A stretch of DNA of 36,697 nt from Betaproteobacteria bacterium. GTDB lineage: Bacteria; Pseudomonadota; Gammaproteobacteria; Burkholderiales; SG8-41. Under the pieces are notes generated by a model, which saw only the letters and a list, made by a program, of their open reading frames with translations, was not told the DNA's origin and did not search any database. The position numbers and the translations under genes are program-made. Location of the stretch: NCBI GenBank assembly GCA_016199545.1, contig JACQGN010000220.1, positions 1 to 36,697 on the forward strand, written 5' to 3'. Position 1 is the stretch's first letter. The number at the start of each line of letters is the position of its first letter. Positions 655-30,275 of this stretch are shown here, one piece after another.

Positions 655-1518
655 ATGAGCGTCAAGAATCCAAGCGACGAGGAACTTCGGGATATTCTCT
701 TTCGCTTCAACGAAACAAACGTCGGCTGGCCCTATGAGCTGGTTCCGTTTGAACAATCATATCTGACCCCCGAGCAAATTGAATACTTAGTGAGACTCCT
801 GGGCACCACAAGGGCGGGTGATCATGTCAGGCAGGAACTCGCTGAGATTGCAGAGTGCTACTGTCGCGATCTTTGGTTTCAAGAAAAACCCTCTCCCTCC
901 GAGATTAAAAGAAGACTTACACAAATACAAACTTCGGCGCACAAGTTACTCCGGTCATTTCACGCGAGAGACGACAGCTCCCAGCAAGCGAAGGCATTCG
1001 TCCAATCCTACATGCGCCTCGCAACCAGCGAATACGCTCGAAGGATGAAGGAGGAATACCCGGAATTCGCACGTGATACCCCCTGGAATTTCTGGACTGC
1101 TTACAGACTTCCCTCGGCTATCCAATCTGTGGAGCTTGTTGAGCATTGGGCTGAGTCGGCAATAGCGATAGTTGATAGAGAGAGCCGCCCAAAGGGTAGA
1201 GTTGTGAAAACTAAGAAAAACGTGGGCAAGACCGCGGCACGCGCGCTCGTCCGAAGTCTGGCGGGAGTGTGGCGACATGCACATGGCGAATTCCCCGGCG
1301 CTGGCTACTCCACCACGAAACGTGAAGCGGACAGCCCGTTTACCCGCTTTACGCTCAAGTTCATCAAGTTTCTGCGGGCCAATGTGACAGCCGACCGTAG
1401 GCGGCATCTGCCAAATATCGACAATGAGTTGTCCGACCTGACTGCTGACGCGATCCGGGGTCACCTGAGAACTTTCAAAGGCTCTTTTAACAGGTTGAGA
1501 AAAAAGGAACCTCGATAA
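655..1518 (+). CDS. Hypothetical protein of the mobile region
   Basis: 287 residues from the ATG at 655, which has GAAGGGG about 5 bases upstream. The open frame reaches back to 517, but the earlier part overlaps the preceding gene and looks non-coding. The product is soluble and mostly helical, rich in Arg, Glu and Trp (several WxF/WNFW patches), with no signal peptide or membrane segment. The final 40 residues are very basic. G+C content is clearly lower than in genes to the right, a sign of transfer. I do not recognise the family. Confidence 0.55.
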   Translation: MSVKNPSDEELRDILFRFNETNVGWPYELVPFEQSYLTPEQIEYLVRLLGTTRAGDHVRQELAEIAECYCRDLWFQEKPSPSEIKRRLTQIQTSAHKLLRSFHARDDSSQQAKAFVQSYMRLATSEYARRMKEEYPEFARDTPWNFWTAYRLPSAIQSVELVEHWAESAIAIVDRESRPKGRVVKTKKNVGKTAARALVRSLAGVWRHAHGEFPGAGYSTTKREADSPFTRFTLKFIKFLRANVTADRRRHLPNIDNELSDLTADAIRGHLRTFKGSFNRLRKKEPR

Positions 1519-1521
1519 CCC

Positions 1522-1566
1522 TGGATGGTGATGCTAGCTCGATTATTTTCCGTACCCCACCATCCA
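1522..1566. terminator. Inverted repeat after the 655-1518 gene
   Basis: TGGATGGTG (1522-1530) and CACCATCCA (1558-1566) are perfect 9-base complements separated by 27 bases that include ATTATTTTCC. It lies just after the stop codon at 1518 and before the AlpA-like gene. It could end transcription of the first unit or be an operator. There is no U-run after the right arm, so intrinsic termination is uncertain. Confidence 0.35.
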
Positions 1567-1638
1567 AGACACTCCTCCATCGCCATTAGAATTTGAATAC
1601 GGACGCGCGTGGTGCGTGCTGGATTCAAACGGGGTGCG

Positions 1639-1893
1639 ATGGTGTCTGAACTTCAAGATGAAAACCTAGTTGGCGCGCAAGCACCGGATGGCGCGTGGAT
1701 CCAATGCCTCTCGCTCCTCGCCATAGCCCAAGTCTGCCTTCGCGTTGGTCACAAAAAATCCTGGGTCTGGCAGGAGGTCAGAGCCGGTAGATTTCCGCCA
1801 CCCATCCACTGCGGAAAATCGGCGCGTTGGGTTAGCAGCGAAATCGACGCCTGGATACGCGAGCGCATTGCAGAATCGCGTAAGGCCGGGTGA
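1639..1893 (+). CDS. AlpA-family excisionase-like regulator
   Basis: 84 residues from the ATG at 1639; an in-frame start at 1609 is possible. The middle and C-terminal part fits the AlpA/phage MerR-like winged helix-turn-helix: a helix around LLAIAQVCLRVGHKKSWVW, then the wing RAGRFPPPIHCGKSARWV, then the closing helix SSEIDAWIRERI. Such proteins act as transcription activators of integrase/excision genes or as recombination directionality factors in prophages, satellites and integrative elements. The gene stands directly upstream of the replication-type primase gene, the usual order in these elements. No integrase is visible in the window; it may lie to the left of base 1. Confidence 0.85.
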   Translation: MVSELQDENLVGAQAPDGAWIQCLSLLAIAQVCLRVGHKKSWVWQEVRAGRFPPPIHCGKSARWVSSEIDAWIRERIAESRKAG

Positions 1894-1902
1894 GGTGCGA
1901 CG

Positions 1903-2109
1903 ATGACGCGCGTTCCCGGCGCCGTTCAACATGCGCTACGCGAGGCGGCGGATGCTCTCACGGTGCTTGCAGCCGACATGCGAGTGACCGGTGCACGCCC
2001 GCGTCAACGTGCGCTCACAGCTCGCGTGCGCGATGCGATGGATACGGTTAATTGGGTAATCGGCTACGAATCTGCCCAGTGCGACCACGATCAGGGAGTC
2101 GGATCGTGA
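1903..2109 (+). CDS. Small helical protein between alpA and primase
   Basis: 68 residues, beginning 10 bases after the AlpA-like stop codon. Its TGA stop (2107-2109) overlaps the GTG start of the primase gene (2106-2108), so the three genes look co-transcribed and the last two translationally coupled. The sequence is Ala/Arg-rich and predicted helical, with two short amphipathic helices and no membrane segment. I recognise no named family; small ORFs in this position are frequent in AlpA-primase modules. Confidence 0.5.
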   Translation: MTRVPGAVQHALREAADALTVLAADMRVTGARPRQRALTARVRDAMDTVNWVIGYESAQCDHDQGVGS

Positions 2110-4535
2110 ACGTCGAACGCGAACGCATCGAATCCGCCCTGAGTTATGTCCCGGCTGGTGATCGTGATCTTTGGTTGCGGATGGGGATGGCAATCAAGGC
2201 CGAGCTTGGGGAGGACGGATTTCCGCTGTGGGACGAATGGAGCCAGCGCGCCGAGAATTACCGCGAGCGCGACGCGCGGACAGTGTGGAACAGTATCAAC
2301 GGGAGCGGCAAGGTGACGGCCGGCACGCTCTACTACGAAGCGAAGCAACGCGGCTGGAAACCGAGCGGCACGGCGCTGGATCAGGCGGAAGCCCAATTTA
2401 CGGCACATGCGAAGCATGTTGCGGCAGCGGAGCGCGCGGGACAAATCCTCGCGACTGCGTCAGGCGAACCCAAGACACACCCCTATTGGTGCAAGAAAAC
2501 GGTTTCTCTCGGCGCGCGGGTGAAGCGTGGCGCGTGGCCGCAACGCGGCTGGACGGATGCGCTGCTGGTGCCGATCTACCAGCGTGACGGCAAGGTGTGG
2601 GGGATCGAAGCCATCGACGAGGCCGGTGATAAGGACACGCTCAAGGATTGCAGGAAGGGGGGCGGGTTCTACCCCTTCGGCAAGATTCGCGGTGCATCGA
2701 GGGTGTTGATCGGCGAGGGCGTTGCGACCGTGGCGGCCGCATTGACGGGGGACGACGCGCCGGGGCTTGCCGCCCTTACAGCGGGCAATCTCAAGGCCGT
2801 GGCGCAATGGGCGCGTGAAGTTTTAGCACCGGGCGCGGACATCATCATCCTGGCCGACAACGACCCGAAAGCGGACGGATCGAATCCGGGCATGAAGGCT
2901 GCTCTGGATGCAGCGCGGGCTGCGACGGGACGTGTCGCCATTCCAGAGCTTGACGGGCGCGCGTGCGACTTCTGGGACGTATGGGCGGAACGGGGCCACG
3001 ACGCGATACAGCACGCTCTGGCGAACGCACAAGCGCCGGTCAATAGCGAGGCACCGGGCGAATGGCCGCAACCACAGCAGCTACCCGAGGGCTTGCCGGT
3101 TGTCGCGCCGTTTGACTTGGCGCTGTTGCCCGAGACATTACAGCCGTGGGCGCGCGATATTTGCGAGCGTGTGCAGTGTCCAGCGGATTACGTGGGCGTC
3201 ACGATCATGGCGGCGCTGGGTTCCGTCATTGGACGTAAGGCGGGAATCCGGGCGCAGGAACGCACGGACTGGACCGAGTATCCGAATCAATGGGCGCTGT
3301 GTGTCGGGCGTCCTGGCGTGCTCAAGTCCCCGGCAATGGAAGCGGCGCTCTCGCCCTTGAAGCGGCTGGCGGTGCAGGCATCGGAAAAGCATCGAGTGGC
3401 GATAGAGGAACACCAGCAAACGGCACGGCTGGGGAAACTCAAGGCGGAAGCATCGGAGAAAGCGGTGCGCGAGAAGCTGCACAAGAATCCGAAGGCCGAC
3501 GTTTCCGATGATCTGATCGCGGACACAACCGCGGTGCCGATGCTGCGGCGCTATATCGCTAACGACACGTCGGCGGAATCATTGGGCGAGCTGCTGCGCC
3601 AGAACCTTAACGGGTTGCTGGTATTCCGTGATGAACTGGTTTCGTTGTTGAAGGGGCTGGATCGCGAGGAAAACGCGGCGGCGCGTGGTTTCTATCTCAC
3701 TGGCTGGGCCGGGAACAGCGCTTACACCTTCGACCGTATCGGGCGCGGGTTGAATCTGCATATCCCTGCTGTCTGTCTGTCGCTGCTGGGTTCGACTCAG
3801 CCGGGGCGGATCGCGGAGTATCTGCGCGCAGCGGTGAAGGGCGGCGCGGGCGATGATGGACTGATTCAACGCTTCGGGCTGCTGGTATGGCCGGACACCG
3901 GCGGCACCTGGCGCGACGTGGACCGCTGGCCGGATTCGGAAGCACGGCACAAGGCAAACGCCGTCTTTGAGAACCTCGACGGACTCGACGCCGAGGCAAT
4001 CGGCGCGCAACAGGATGACTTCGGCGGCGCGAGGTATGTCCGCTTCGATGATGAAGGGTTGGGACTGTTCCGAGAGTGGCGCGGGGTGTTGGAATCGAAA
4101 CTGCGGACAGGCGATCTACACCCGGCGCTGGAATCGCACCTTGCCAAGTATCGCAAGCTGGTGCCCGGCTTGGCGCTGATCCTGCATCTTGCCAACGGCG
4201 CGACCGGGCCGGTATCGAAGCGGGCGACGCTGCAAGCGCTCGCGTGGGCGGAATACCTTGAAACCCATGCCCGGCGAGCTTATGCCAGCGTGACCAGCCC
4301 CGAGGTTACGGCCGCAAAGGCGATTGTGTATCGACTCCGCCGGGGCGATCTGAATAGGACGTTTTCCAGCCGGGACGTTTGGCGGCCAAATTGGGCGAAC
4401 CTCTCGGACCGGGAAACGGTGCTTGATGCACTTCGGCTGCTGGTGGATTTCGACTGGATCATGGTCACCCGGACCGAGACTGCGGGGCGCACCGCGACCG
4501 TTTACGAGGCTAATCCCAAGGGGCTCAAGGCATGA
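2106..4535 (+). CDS. PriCT-2/Toprim/DUF3987 primase-helicase
   Basis: 809 residues from the GTG at 2106. Residues about 1-75 match the PriCT-2 primase C-terminal helical domain (VPAGDRDLWLRMGMAIK, then WDEWSQRA). Residues about 170-310 form a Toprim-like primase segment, with LIGEGVATVAAAL near 200 and the acidic ILADNDPKADG motif near 248. From about residue 340 onward it matches the DUF3987 ATPase-like region, including a P-loop-like GRPGVLKSP near 400. Proteins of this architecture replicate satellite prophages and integrative elements, priming and unwinding DNA. Its stop overlaps the next start (ATGA, 4532-4535). This is the best evidence that 1-6240 is, or was, a self-replicating mobile element. 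Confidence 0.88.
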   Translation: MNVERERIESALSYVPAGDRDLWLRMGMAIKAELGEDGFPLWDEWSQRAENYRERDARTVWNSINGSGKVTAGTLYYEAKQRGWKPSGTALDQAEAQFTAHAKHVAAAERAGQILATASGEPKTHPYWCKKTVSLGARVKRGAWPQRGWTDALLVPIYQRDGKVWGIEAIDEAGDKDTLKDCRKGGGFYPFGKIRGASRVLIGEGVATVAAALTGDDAPGLAALTAGNLKAVAQWAREVLAPGADIIILADNDPKADGSNPGMKAALDAARAATGRVAIPELDGRACDFWDVWAERGHDAIQHALANAQAPVNSEAPGEWPQPQQLPEGLPVVAPFDLALLPETLQPWARDICERVQCPADYVGVTIMAALGSVIGRKAGIRAQERTDWTEYPNQWALCVGRPGVLKSPAMEAALSPLKRLAVQASEKHRVAIEEHQQTARLGKLKAEASEKAVREKLHKNPKADVSDDLIADTTAVPMLRRYIANDTSAESLGELLRQNLNGLLVFRDELVSLLKGLDREENAAARGFYLTGWAGNSAYTFDRIGRGLNLHIPAVCLSLLGSTQPGRIAEYLRAAVKGGAGDDGLIQRFGLLVWPDTGGTWRDVDRWPDSEARHKANAVFENLDGLDAEAIGAQQDDFGGARYVRFDDEGLGLFREWRGVLESKLRTGDLHPALESHLAKYRKLVPGLALILHLANGATGPVSKRATLQALAWAEYLETHARRAYASVTSPEVTAAKAIVYRLRRGDLNRTFSSRDVWRPNWANLSDRETVLDALRLLVDFDWIMVTRTETAGRTATVYEANPKGLKA

Positions 4536-27658: not shown

Positions 27659-28116
27659 GCGCGCAGCTCGAAACCATGCTTCGCTATCGCCGCATGAGCG
27701 AGGCCGATCTCGCCACTGTCATGGCGATCGAGAATGCCGTCTACACGCATCCCTGGACGCGCGGCAACTTCGTCGACTCGCTGAATGCGGGTTATCCCTG
27801 CCGGGTGGCGGAACGTGCCGGCGCGATCGTCGGCTATTGCGTCGTCGCGGTTGCGGCGAGTGAAGCGCACCTGCTCAACCTGACCGTCGCAGGGGCATGG
27901 CAGCGCATGGGGCTCGGCAGTGCGATGCTGCAGTTCGCGATCACCCTCGCGAAGGAGCGGGCTGCGCAAAGGATCTTCCTCGAAGTGCGCGTTTCCAACT
28001 TTGCGGCGCGCGCCCTTTACGCGCGCTCAGGGTTTCGCGAGATCGGCACGCGCCAAGACTATTACGCGGCGCACGGGGGCCGGGAGGACGCACGGGTGCT
28101 GGAGCGCGTGCTATGA
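27655..28116 (+). CDS. rimI: Ribosomal-protein-S18-alanine N-acetyltransferase
   Basis: 153 residues. A GNAT acetyltransferase with the acetyl-CoA-binding stretch LLNLTVAGAWQRMGLGSAML (Q/RxxGxG/A motif) near residue 80-99, preceded by MAIENAVYTHPWTRGNF typical of RimI, and followed by IFLEVRVSNFAARALYARSGF and the YY(A) segment near 135. RimI acetylates the N-terminal alanine of ribosomal protein S18. It starts inside the tsaB stop and its own stop overlaps the next start, so translation of the three genes is coupled. Confidence 0.95.
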   Translation: MSAQLETMLRYRRMSEADLATVMAIENAVYTHPWTRGNFVDSLNAGYPCRVAERAGAIVGYCVVAVAASEAHLLNLTVAGAWQRMGLGSAMLQFAITLAKERAAQRIFLEVRVSNFAARALYARSGFREIGTRQDYYAAHGGREDARVLERVL

Positions 28117-29441
28117 GCAGCCGGCGCGACGAAATGCTGAAGGAGATGGGGCTGTGGCCCCGCTGGCGGCTGCGCCAAGGTGATGCGCCCTTGGGGGGAA
28201 GCGGTAGCGCAGGCGACTCGCCTGCAGCGGCGCCGCTGGCGCAAGGAGTTCACAGTCGCGGTTATCTGCCCCATCTCAAGGCGGAAGGTGGGGTCTATTT
28301 TGTCACGTTTCGCCTCGCAAACTCGTTGCCGGGCGACGTATTGCGTCAACTGGAAACGCTGACTCCCGAACAAAGGTCGTCGCAGATCGACGAGCACCTC
28401 GACGCTGGCTACGGCGAAGCGTGGCTCGCCGTCCCGGAGATCGCAAATGCCCTTAGAAACGCACTGCTGCATTTCGATGGCAGTCGTTATCGCCTCCGGG
28501 CGTGGGTCATCATGCCGAATCACGTCCATCTCCTGATCGAACCGCTGGGCAAGCATTCATTGTCCGAGGTCCTGCAGGGAGTCAAATCGGTCAGCGCACA
28601 TGAAGCAAACAGAATACTGGGGCGAGAAGGGGCGTTCTGGCAACCGGAAAGTTACGATCATCTGGTTCGCGACTCCGGGGACTTCGACCGTTGCCACGAG
28701 TACGTCTTGCAAAACCCGGTGAAGGCCGGACTGGTAAGTGCCGCCCATGAGTATCCGTTTTCCAGCGGATTTCGGGGAGCGAGTTCGATAGCAGCCAAGC
28801 ACGTTCCAGGGCGTGCAGGCGGGGCGCCTGCGCTACGCGACGATCGCCGGGCGCGCATCATGCGGATGGACTGGAGCGAGCTCAAGGCGTGTGTCGCGTC
28901 CTGCGTGGACTGCGAGTTGCATGCCAGGCGCAACAAGACGGTATTCGGCGTCGGCGACGAGCAGGCGAGCTGGCTGTTCGTAGGTGAAGGTCCCGGCGCG
29001 GACGAGGACGCGCAGGGCGAGCCGTTCGTCGGCCAGGCCGGCCGGCTGCTCGACAGCATGCTGGCGGCGATCGAGCTCAAGCGCGGTCACGACGTCTATA
29101 TTGGAAACATCGTCAAATGCCGCCCTCCCGGCAACCGCAACCCGCAACCGCAGGAGGCGCTGGCGTGCGAGCCGTACCTGCAGCGGCAGATCGAGCTCAT
29201 CCAACCCGCGCTGATCGTGGCGCTCGGCAAGGTCGCCGCGGTGAATCTGCTTGGGCGCGAGGCGACGATCGCCAGCCTTCGCGGCAAGGTGCACGAGTAC
29301 CGTGGCACTCCGCTTATCGTGACCTATCACCCCGCGTATCTGTTGCGCAGCCTGCCCGACAAGGCCAAGGCGTGGGCCGATCTGTGCTTTGCCGTGGACA
29401 CCATGCGCGGCTTGAAGGAGCGGGTGACCCCCACAATTTAG
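28113..29441 (+). CDS. Uracil-DNA glycosylase (family 4/5) carrying an in-frame RAYT transposase domain
   Basis: 442 residues. Residues 1-30 (MSSRRDEMLKEMGLWPRWRL...) are the usual start of betaproteobacterial glycosylases encoded after rimI. Residues about 31-242 are a REP-associated tyrosine transposase: GVYFVTFRLANSLPG, the HUH pair H137/H139 in MPNHVHLLIEP, and catalytic Y197 in CHEYVLQNPVKAGL. Residues about 250-435 are the glycosylase: Cys pair CVDCELH, GEGPGADEDAQGEPFVGQAG, KCRPPGNRNPQP, a Cys in ACEPYL (together the four [4Fe-4S] ligands) and HPAYLLRS. The enzyme removes uracil from deaminated DNA. The insert keeps the frame and lies in the flexible linker, so the glycosylase may still work. 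Last gene of tsaB-rimI-udg. Confidence 0.9.
   Translation: MSSRRDEMLKEMGLWPRWRLRQGDAPLGGSGSAGDSPAAAPLAQGVHSRGYLPHLKAEGGVYFVTFRLANSLPGDVLRQLETLTPEQRSSQIDEHLDAGYGEAWLAVPEIANALRNALLHFDGSRYRLRAWVIMPNHVHLLIEPLGKHSLSEVLQGVKSVSAHEANRILGREGAFWQPESYDHLVRDSGDFDRCHEYVLQNPVKAGLVSAAHEYPFSSGFRGASSIAAKHVPGRAGGAPALRDDRRARIMRMDWSELKACVASCVDCELHARRNKTVFGVGDEQASWLFVGEGPGADEDAQGEPFVGQAGRLLDSMLAAIELKRGHDVYIGNIVKCRPPGNRNPQPQEALACEPYLQRQIELIQPALIVALGKVAAVNLLGREATIASLRGKVHEYRGTPLIVTYHPAYLLRSLPDKAKAWADLCFAVDTMRGLKERVTPTI
28204..28225 (+). repeat. Left REP hairpin
   Basis: GTAG head, perfect 7-base stem (28209-28215 with 28219-28225), loop ACT at 28216-28218. Confidence 0.85.
28815..28836 (-). repeat. Right REP hairpin, inverted
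   Basis: Reverse complement of the left copy apart from the 3-base loop; the GTAG head is at 28836-28833 on the minus strand, so both heads point outward. Confidence 0.85.
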
Positions 29442-29454
29442 TGCGAAAATGCGT

Positions 29455-29652
29455 GGCTGACAGGGCGTGACCGACAGGGCGTGACCGACAGGGCGTGACC
29501 GACAGGGCGTGACTGACAGGGCGTGACTGATAGGGCGTGACCGGTGCGGCGCAATCGGCAAGAACGTTGCCAGTCACGCATCTGGAGTTACGATTCATCA
29601 GTCACGAGTCACCAGTCACGAGTCACGAGTCACGATTCATCAGTCACGTAAC
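29455..29652. repeat. Heptanucleotide-period arrays upstream of lemA (site 4)
   Basis: Left arm: a 14-base unit GTGACCGACAGGGC starting at 29467, 29481, 29495, 29509, 29523 and 29537, drifting towards the end. Right arm (29591-29648): 7-base units CAGTCAC/GAGTCAC with two GATTCAT variants. The arms face each other (GTGAC versus GTCAC). They fill almost the whole gap between the glycosylase stop and the lemA start. Confidence 0.9.
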
Positions 29653-29663
29653 GGAGAACGATC

Positions 29664-30275
29664 ATGGGCAGGAGGTTTCCAGCGGTAGTGGCGTTCGCGG
29701 CGACCGCGTTGTTGTCGGGCTGCGGCTACAACACGCTGCAATCGACCGACGAGCAGATCAAGGCGGCTTGGGCCGAGGTGCTCAACCAGTACCAGCGGCG
29801 CACCGATCTCATCCCCAACCTGGTCGAAACGGTCAAGGCGTTTGCTGCGCAGGAACAGCAGGTTTTCCTCGGGGTGACCGAGGCGCGTTCGCGGGTGGGA
29901 TCGATCCAGGCGACCCCGGAACTCATTAACGATCCGCAGGCGTTCGCGCGCTTCCAGCAGGCGCAGGGGGCGCTGTCCTCGGCGCTGTCGCGGCTGCTGC
30001 TGGTGGCCGAGAACTATCCGCAGTTGAAGTCCGACCGGAATTTCCGTGACCTGCAGGCGCAACTTGAAGGCACGGAAAACCGCATCACCGTGGCGCGCAA
30101 CCGCTATATCAAGGCGGTGCAGGCGTACAACGTCGTCGTGCGCCAGTTCCCGAGCAACCTGACGGCGATGCTGTTCGGGTTCAAGGAGAAGCCGCAGTTC
30201 ACGGTCGAGAACGAGAAAGAGATCAGCAAGCCGCCGAAGGTCGATTTCAGCAAGCCCGCACCTGAGGCGAAGTAG
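29664..30275 (+). CDS. lemA: LemA-family lipoprotein-like protein
   Basis: 203 residues. The N-terminus MGRRFPAVVAFAATALLSGCGY ends in a lipobox (LSGC, Cys19), so the protein is probably a lipoprotein. The LemA core follows: YNTLQSTDEQIKAAWAEVLN, QYQRRTDLIPNLVETVKAFA, ARSRVGSIQATPELI, ENYPQLKSDRNFRDLQAQLE and TENRITVARNRYIKAVQAYN. It is a long helical bundle facing the periplasm. The function of LemA is not established. It is followed by a TPM-domain gene, the common lemA-ygcG-type pairing. Confidence 0.95.
   Translation: MGRRFPAVVAFAATALLSGCGYNTLQSTDEQIKAAWAEVLNQYQRRTDLIPNLVETVKAFAAQEQQVFLGVTEARSRVGSIQATPELINDPQAFARFQQAQGALSSALSRLLLVAENYPQLKSDRNFRDLQAQLEGTENRITVARNRYIKAVQAYNVVVRQFPSNLTAMLFGFKEKPQFTVENEKEISKPPKVDFSKPAPEAK

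Follow-up and report, generated by a model that had tools for sequence, protein, structure and literature searches.

A REP-flanked RAYT transposase in the reading frame of a family-4 uracil-DNA glycosylase gene

A classification of RAYT transposases was reportedly given by Bertels and colleagues in 2017. In the portions of the literature available, RAYTs are described as stand-alone genes tied to REP populations (PMC6006769; PMC3733652), with REPs lying in frame within genes and REPs lying inside RAYT genes both already known (PMC3733652; PMC6006769). The locus considered here comes from a 36,697-nucleotide stretch of betaproteobacterial DNA, the whole of which is referred to as the window, and raises the question of what a complete REP-flanked RAYT is doing within the open frame of a uracil-DNA glycosylase (UDG) gene. 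We read the fusion as a REP/RAYT element carried as a translated passenger in protein linkers rather than as a purpose-built repair enzyme.

Architecture of the fused gene

The fused gene (28113-29441, forward strand) consists of a UDG N-terminus, a REP-RAYT-REP cassette and a UDG catalytic domain, with no internal stop across its 442 codons. It opens with a conserved UDG N-terminal segment of residues 1-22 (28113-28178, forward strand; MSSRRDEMLKEMGLWPRWRLRQ), delimited from the alignment of 17 fusions and the linkers of RAYT-less UDGs, in which AlphaFold predicts a helix at residues 4-11; in relatives a variable linker separates this segment from the catalytic domain. An earlier sequence-only reading had placed the glycosylase start at residues 1-30, and while the N-terminus is indeed present its conserved part covers only about residues 1-22. 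The cassette, both REPs counted, spans 28204-28836 and, in agreement with that reading, comprises 211 codons free of stops and frameshifts. Within it the RAYT core occupies residues 46-223 (28248-28781, forward strand), with H137 and H139 as the HUH histidines and Y197 as the catalytic Tyr. The family-4 UDG catalytic domain follows at about residues 252-424 (28866-29384, forward strand), as identified by TIGR00758, PF03167 and a structural match to 1ui0/1ui1.

Both enzymes were recovered by profile searches, with Pfam placing Y1_Tnp at residues 125-198 and UDG at 278-424, each above its cut-off, and NCBIfam placing REP_Tyr_transpos (NF047646) at 106-217 (94.3 bits against a cut-off of 80) and UDG_fam4 (TIGR00758) at 264-424 (194.8 bits against 125.3). 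The UDG part has the family-4 profile, the HPAY motif and all four cysteines (264, 267, 336 and 352), which we take to be the Fe-S ligands of family-4 UDG. The RAYT part shows the Y1-fold signature of an HUH motif plus one catalytic Tyr, together with inverted GTAG REP flanks that are also present elsewhere in the genome; it has no start and stop of its own, lying inside the UDG frame. The claims that a whole REP/RAYT cassette sits in frame in the UDG gene and that neither catalytic site is disrupted, the four cysteines included, are therefore upheld at the level of the sequence. The AlphaFold model, for which the 17 aligned fusions served as input, was modest (mean pLDDT 68, pTM 0.45), predicting two folded domains with linkers at 13-58 and 223-242 below pLDDT 50, as were two short UDG stretches at 295-307 and 338-341. 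Foldseek with the predicted model matched the UDG structures 1ui0/1ui1 and the RAYT (TnpA-REP) structure 4er8, and phmmer returned the same two protein kinds (UDG, and RAYT including 4er8). The genome of the window also encodes two other UDG-superfamily genes, such that the fused UDG may not be the sole source of activity. Just 3′ of the gene, tandem repeats resembling gggcgtgaccgaca and gagtcac lie at 29455-29655 of the window.

The left REP (28204-28225, forward strand) is a GTAGC hairpin with a 7-bp stem, translated as GSAGDSPA, and the right REP (28815-28836, reverse strand) is its inverted counterpart, translated as AGGAPAL. Over 23 nt, the arms at 28204-28226 and 28814-28836 show 91% complementarity, and the two 22-mers differ solely in the 3-base loop (ACT/CCC) with the GTAG feet pointing outward, exactly as first described. 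Allowing at most one mismatch, a genome-wide count found 7 copies in the window's own genome and 3-195 copies in 10 of 13 relatives tested, with none in the other three; a backwards control pattern had no match in any of the 14 genomes. A hairpin scan of the 17 fusions located the left hairpin in 15 and the right hairpin in all 17. Judged by eye, the stem type was the same at both ends in 14 of the 15 genes having a left hairpin (G471 differing), although it varied between lineages, and this shared stem type suggests that the REPs at both ends may be renewed together. As RNA, the single REP hairpins folded little better than shuffled sequence (z -1.64 and -0.45), with 16 and 64 of 200 shuffles, respectively, folding at least as well.

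Occurrence, descent and constraint of the fusion

Seventeen genomes carry the fusion complete and with its frame open, one carries it frameshifted and four have it truncated at a contig end, all within three families of a single order. Complete copies were found in six of the 74 genomes of family f1 (G000, G001, G016, G025, G084 and G078; cut copies were possibly missed), in three of f50 (G205, G388 and G274) and in eight of f44 (G385, G471, G469, G476, G270, G160, G473 and G200). In genus g92, six of eight genomes have the fusion, complete in G205, G388 and G274, contig-cut in G303 and G414 and frameshifted after the RAYT in G360, with an empty site in G242 and no match in G332. The RAYT and UDG of G360 (L227/L251) lie in different frames, reflecting either natural breakage of the fusion or a sequence error. 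In genus g71, 10 of 23 genomes have the fusion, two of them contig-cut (G475 and G472), with an empty site in 12 and no match in G474. By coordinates, the stop reported in G469 falls before the UDG start and that in G160 is the gene's own end. In an evenly drawn sample of 399 genomes from the order, the fusion was matched at E 1e-118 in eight (G000, the rest belonging to f50 and f44) and the RAYT at E 1e-15 in 18, the best 11 of which (at least 46% identity to the window's RAYT) lie within UDG by reading; the other seven, at 34-42% identity, were not counted as UDG-embedded. One of these seven (L237, in G352; 40% identity) belongs to a 1173-aa open frame and may be an embedded copy. A record titled as a Chitinophaga pinensis MAG (L098) holds the fused UDG of G084, a genome of f1, and its title is probably wrong.

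The window's genome assembly is a draft in 349 contigs with a completeness of 78.7%. Given complete fusions of Y1_Tnp and UDG in a further 16 genomes, a chimeric contig is very improbable, and the open frames in 17 genomes rule out an assembly artefact or a sequencing error, including one that would have merged a UDG gene with a RAYT beside it. The occurrence of the fusion in three families, with RAYT identities among fusions down to 48%, is grounds for rejecting a recent insertion, and the description of the cassette as newly inserted is not supported.

In the UDG tree (94 rows, 20 of them fused, with SH-aLRT as the only support) the frameshifted G360 and contig-cut G472 were counted as fused, and L203 (G005), L079 (G003) and L214 (G034) were left out for having no full UDG frame. 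The fused label required nine changes on this tree, at least four of them forced by starred branches, as against 18.5 in shuffles. In the RAYT tree (97 rows, with L141 and L144 labelled as alone though each forms the C-terminal tail of another protein) the 21 UDG-embedded RAYTs fell on one side of a branch with a support of 87, not starred. In a careful 25-row RAYT tree the UDG-embedded label needed two changes and a single clade was not rejected by the AU test (p 0.425), in keeping with one or two possible origins. The RAYTs of f50 form one clade, while the AU test rejected a single clade for the nine f44 RAYTs (p 0.0076) because the RAYT of G385 groups with f1 RAYTs, its UDG lying within f44. 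Simple vertical descent is rejected on these grounds, and the conflict calls for one or more transfers or for more than one entry into this linker, with some uncertainty due to the long branch of G385.

The insertion point lies in a part of the protein that is highly variable. Where measured in RAYT-less UDGs, 48-103 residues separate the N-terminal motif from the first Fe-S Cys, and by reading, four RAYT-less genes (G017, G028, G076 and G077) carry in-frame REP peptides in this linker. The fusion of G078 has the same left REP array as its RAYT-less sisters G076 and G077, in which the array runs in frame into sequence 3′ of the last right REP of G078; in a third sister, G080, the array is missing. 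The RAYT block is therefore absent in frame from G076 and G077, which furnish the empty site sought in relatives with REPs left behind, a configuration compatible with gain or loss alike. In G004, the REPs and the first RAYT codons (5′ end) are kept and the RAYT core is gone. SHESR-like peptides, resembling the repeats 3′ of the window gene, occur in the UDG linkers of some RAYT-less relatives, and it seems that the linker collects several kinds of repeat. By reading, the orthologous UDGs L070 (G006, 1204-3471) and L079 (G003) hold an apparent intein, containing homing-endonuclease-like sequence and located at the Cys of VKCRPPGN. The UDGs of g71 (L220, L222 and L253-L272) nearly all have KSRPP at the position of KCRPP in the window, with the Cys retained in G470, such that Ser replaces a presumed Fe-S ligand Cys whether the RAYT is present or absent.

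H137, H139 and Y197 are invariant across the 17 aligned fusions, bearing out the earlier statement that they are intact. In all 22 UDG-embedded RAYTs the HUH and Tyr motifs are preserved, with the variant NHAH in G016. Estimated by NG86 from pairs that partly share genomes and in which some dS values are near saturation, dN/dS was 0.039-0.146 for the RAYT in nine of ten pairs and 0.063-0.178 for UDG in its nine pairs. The exception was the window's own pair, G000/G001, with a RAYT dN/dS of 0.95 and three synonymous and nine nonsynonymous changes in the RAYT as against nine and three in UDG (Fisher p 0.039), suggesting that constraint on the RAYT may just have been lost there. The RAYT dS was at least that of UDG in six of nine pairs, for which recent exchange of the RAYT alone need not be invoked, and was lower in G000/G001, G205/G388 and G205/G360. 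A scan from 12 codons before to 6 codons after the RAYT start (16 copies given, of which G303 had no such part) found no ATG, GTG or TTG in nine of 15 copies and a candidate start codon in six. The window belongs with the former; its V46, the residue preceding the RAYT's first His, is encoded by GTT. Given the nine copies with no start codon in this region, the RAYT is probably produced solely within the glycosylase chain.

RAYT lineages associate with particular host genes

Named genomes were scanned with the RAYT part, and the best 80 loci among the matches listed were followed up; this sample, picked by similarity to the embedded RAYT, gives no measure of the share among all RAYTs. Four of the 80 had no HUH frame by the pattern used. 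Of the best 80, 41 were selected because the RAYT lies within a long open frame and were run through Pfam; 28 of these had a host domain 3′ of the RAYT in the same open frame; with L098, the same protein as that of G084, 29 of the best 80 lie in frame in conserved genes. Ten of these also have a host domain before the RAYT, namely in Sua5 (L101, L103 and L107), MetH (L102, L106 and L124), PriA (L129), a DinG-like helicase (L117), a tRNA nucleotidyltransferase (L161) and an MmeI-type enzyme (L152). Among them, L124 belongs to a named strain, Rubritalea profundi SAORIC-165, and its MetH carries an embedded RAYT of another kind, a further point against an assembly artefact. A host domain after the RAYT only was found in Eco57I-type (restriction) methylases, the SNF2 helicase L109 and HypF (L157), and before the RAYT only in L115. 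Two loci run off their contigs (L128 and L143), and in a D-Tyr-tRNA deacylase and a CinA (L141, L144) the RAYT forms an in-frame C-terminal tail. No host domain was found by Pfam in the other eight of the 41. Outside the best 80, a DUF1156 protein in G026 holds another embedded RAYT, again with HUH and Tyr motif intact.

Across 32 embedded loci, in which the HUH was a precondition of the pattern and partly of the scan, the Tyr motif lies 64-69 residues after the HUH in all 32 and WQ is present in 14. The host-gene groups needed five changes in all on the RAYT tree as against 40.8 in shuffles, showing that RAYT lineages associate with particular host genes; seven methylase copies located after the DPAxGSGA motif form one branch with a support of 88. 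Record titles among the matches listed, which may err, name Verrucomicrobiota, Planctomycetota, Acidobacteria and Ignavibacteria as well as Omnitrophota, Caldisericota and Bacteroidales.

Competing explanations and known systems

The observations are best accounted for by a REPtron that occupies a permissive linker, is translated together with the host enzyme and has an active RAYT maintained by selection, an explanation that, argued from sequence comparison, we hold to be probably correct. A complete REP-flanked RAYT would have entered the UDG gene once or a few times, long ago, at a disordered tether joining the N-terminal helix to the family-4 UDG catalytic domain, and would be translated as an internal domain of a single polypeptide. 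Because the tether tolerates the insert the glycosylase should stay active, and this tolerance may also rest on redundancy with the two other UDG-superfamily genes. The RAYT domain would retain its single-stranded DNA nuclease site, the probable substrate being REP hairpins, with the host frame supplying expression to an element that has neither promoter nor start codon of its own. Since a stop or frameshift in the element would harm the host gene, mainly in-frame changes or loss would be tolerated. A broader proposal, on which we are evenly divided, is that REP-flanked RAYT lineages persist for long periods inside conserved enzymes of several phyla, translated as internal domains whose catalytic sites are intact. 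Each lineage would be faithful to one host gene and position, in the manner of an intein that never splices, and could reach the same linker repeatedly.

The alternative that the fusion is a domesticated repair protein, in which the HUH domain handles single-stranded or hairpin DNA beside uracil removal to the benefit of the host, draws on the spread of UDG-embedded RAYTs across three families, the purifying selection in nine of ten RAYT pairs, the grouping of these RAYTs in their tree (support 87) and the frequent location of intragenic REPs in repair genes in the available part of PMC3733652. It is nevertheless unlikely, as complete fusions occur in just six of 74 f1 genomes, the UDG tree requires nine label changes and similar RAYTs lie in frame in the non-repair genes encoding Sua5, MetH, tRNA nucleotidyltransferase and HypF. 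The domesticated fusion envisaged by the sequence-only reading is thus possible, but the similar RAYTs in non-repair genes and the few complete fusions in f1 give it no special favor, even if the fusion is more frequent in g71 and g92. Somewhat less probable again is that the RAYT is inert filler, functionless and open merely because it lies inside a needed gene; the dN/dS of 0.95 in G000/G001 and the loss of the RAYT core in G004 are what such filler would show, whereas the dN/dS of 0.04-0.15 in nine of ten pairs and the catalytic motifs in 22 of 22 UDG copies are not.

Removal of the insert before or after translation, by an intron, an intein or ribosome bypass, would yield a mature glycosylase free of it, and the inverted REPs could conceivably bring the insert ends together in RNA. 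This is very improbable, with the frame open in 17 genomes and linker lengths differing among species. Rfam gave no match to E 1 over 27900-29700, leaving assignment to a group I intron or IStron without support, and no Hint or other splicing domain was among the Pfam and NCBIfam matches, so that an intein is unsupported likewise.

If whole RAYTs do persist in the frames of enzymes, as a co-translated REPtron would, they would represent a transposase route to avoiding loss without splicing, a natural record of protein linkers accepting a foreign domain, and an origin for chimeric proteins, which surveys may discard as fusions or annotation errors. Whether RAYTs stay for the spread of REPs or for host benefit becomes testable, as each embedded copy is locked into its host frame and can be set against empty genes in sister genomes. 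The first reading knew of no described protein of this type, and in keeping with this the literature searched, which included few subscription papers and no supplements, yielded no account of complete RAYTs embedded in the frame of host genes; a term search of PMC2817692 and the parts of PMC8266576 examined contained no fusion of a RAYT with a host gene.

Several known systems resemble parts of this arrangement, each compared here through the portions of the cited source available. Inteins and IStrons (PMC4227781) are likewise mobile elements within coding genes but splice at the protein or RNA level, no splicing part having been found here. Rickettsia palindromic elements (reviewed in PMC10969869) are mobile palindromes entering genes in frame, as here, but are of about 150 bp with no transposase within. 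The ShiLan insertion in a phage methylase (PMC11855218) similarly keeps the host frame open, has no intein or intron parts and hides a mobility enzyme; that enzyme, an HNH, is encoded in another frame from its own GTG, whereas the transposase of the window is in the host frame. Intragenic GTAG/CGTC REPs are also palindromes translated in frame, many of them in DNA-repair genes and possibly forming flexible linkers (PMC3733652), but those described there are single REPs, dimers and clusters of at most 82 amino acids, as opposed to the whole transposase found here. REPtron/RAYT (TnpA-REP) subclasses 2.4 and 2.7 (PMC6006769) share the HUH, single Tyr and WQ motif and the inverted GTAG REPs at both ends, and, compared by motifs alone, the NHVH, WQ and YVLQNP of the window resemble subclass 2.7 in the table of that paper. 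In that source REPtrons are treated as stand-alone, whereas the RAYT of the window has no gene of its own and is carried in the frame of a glycosylase.
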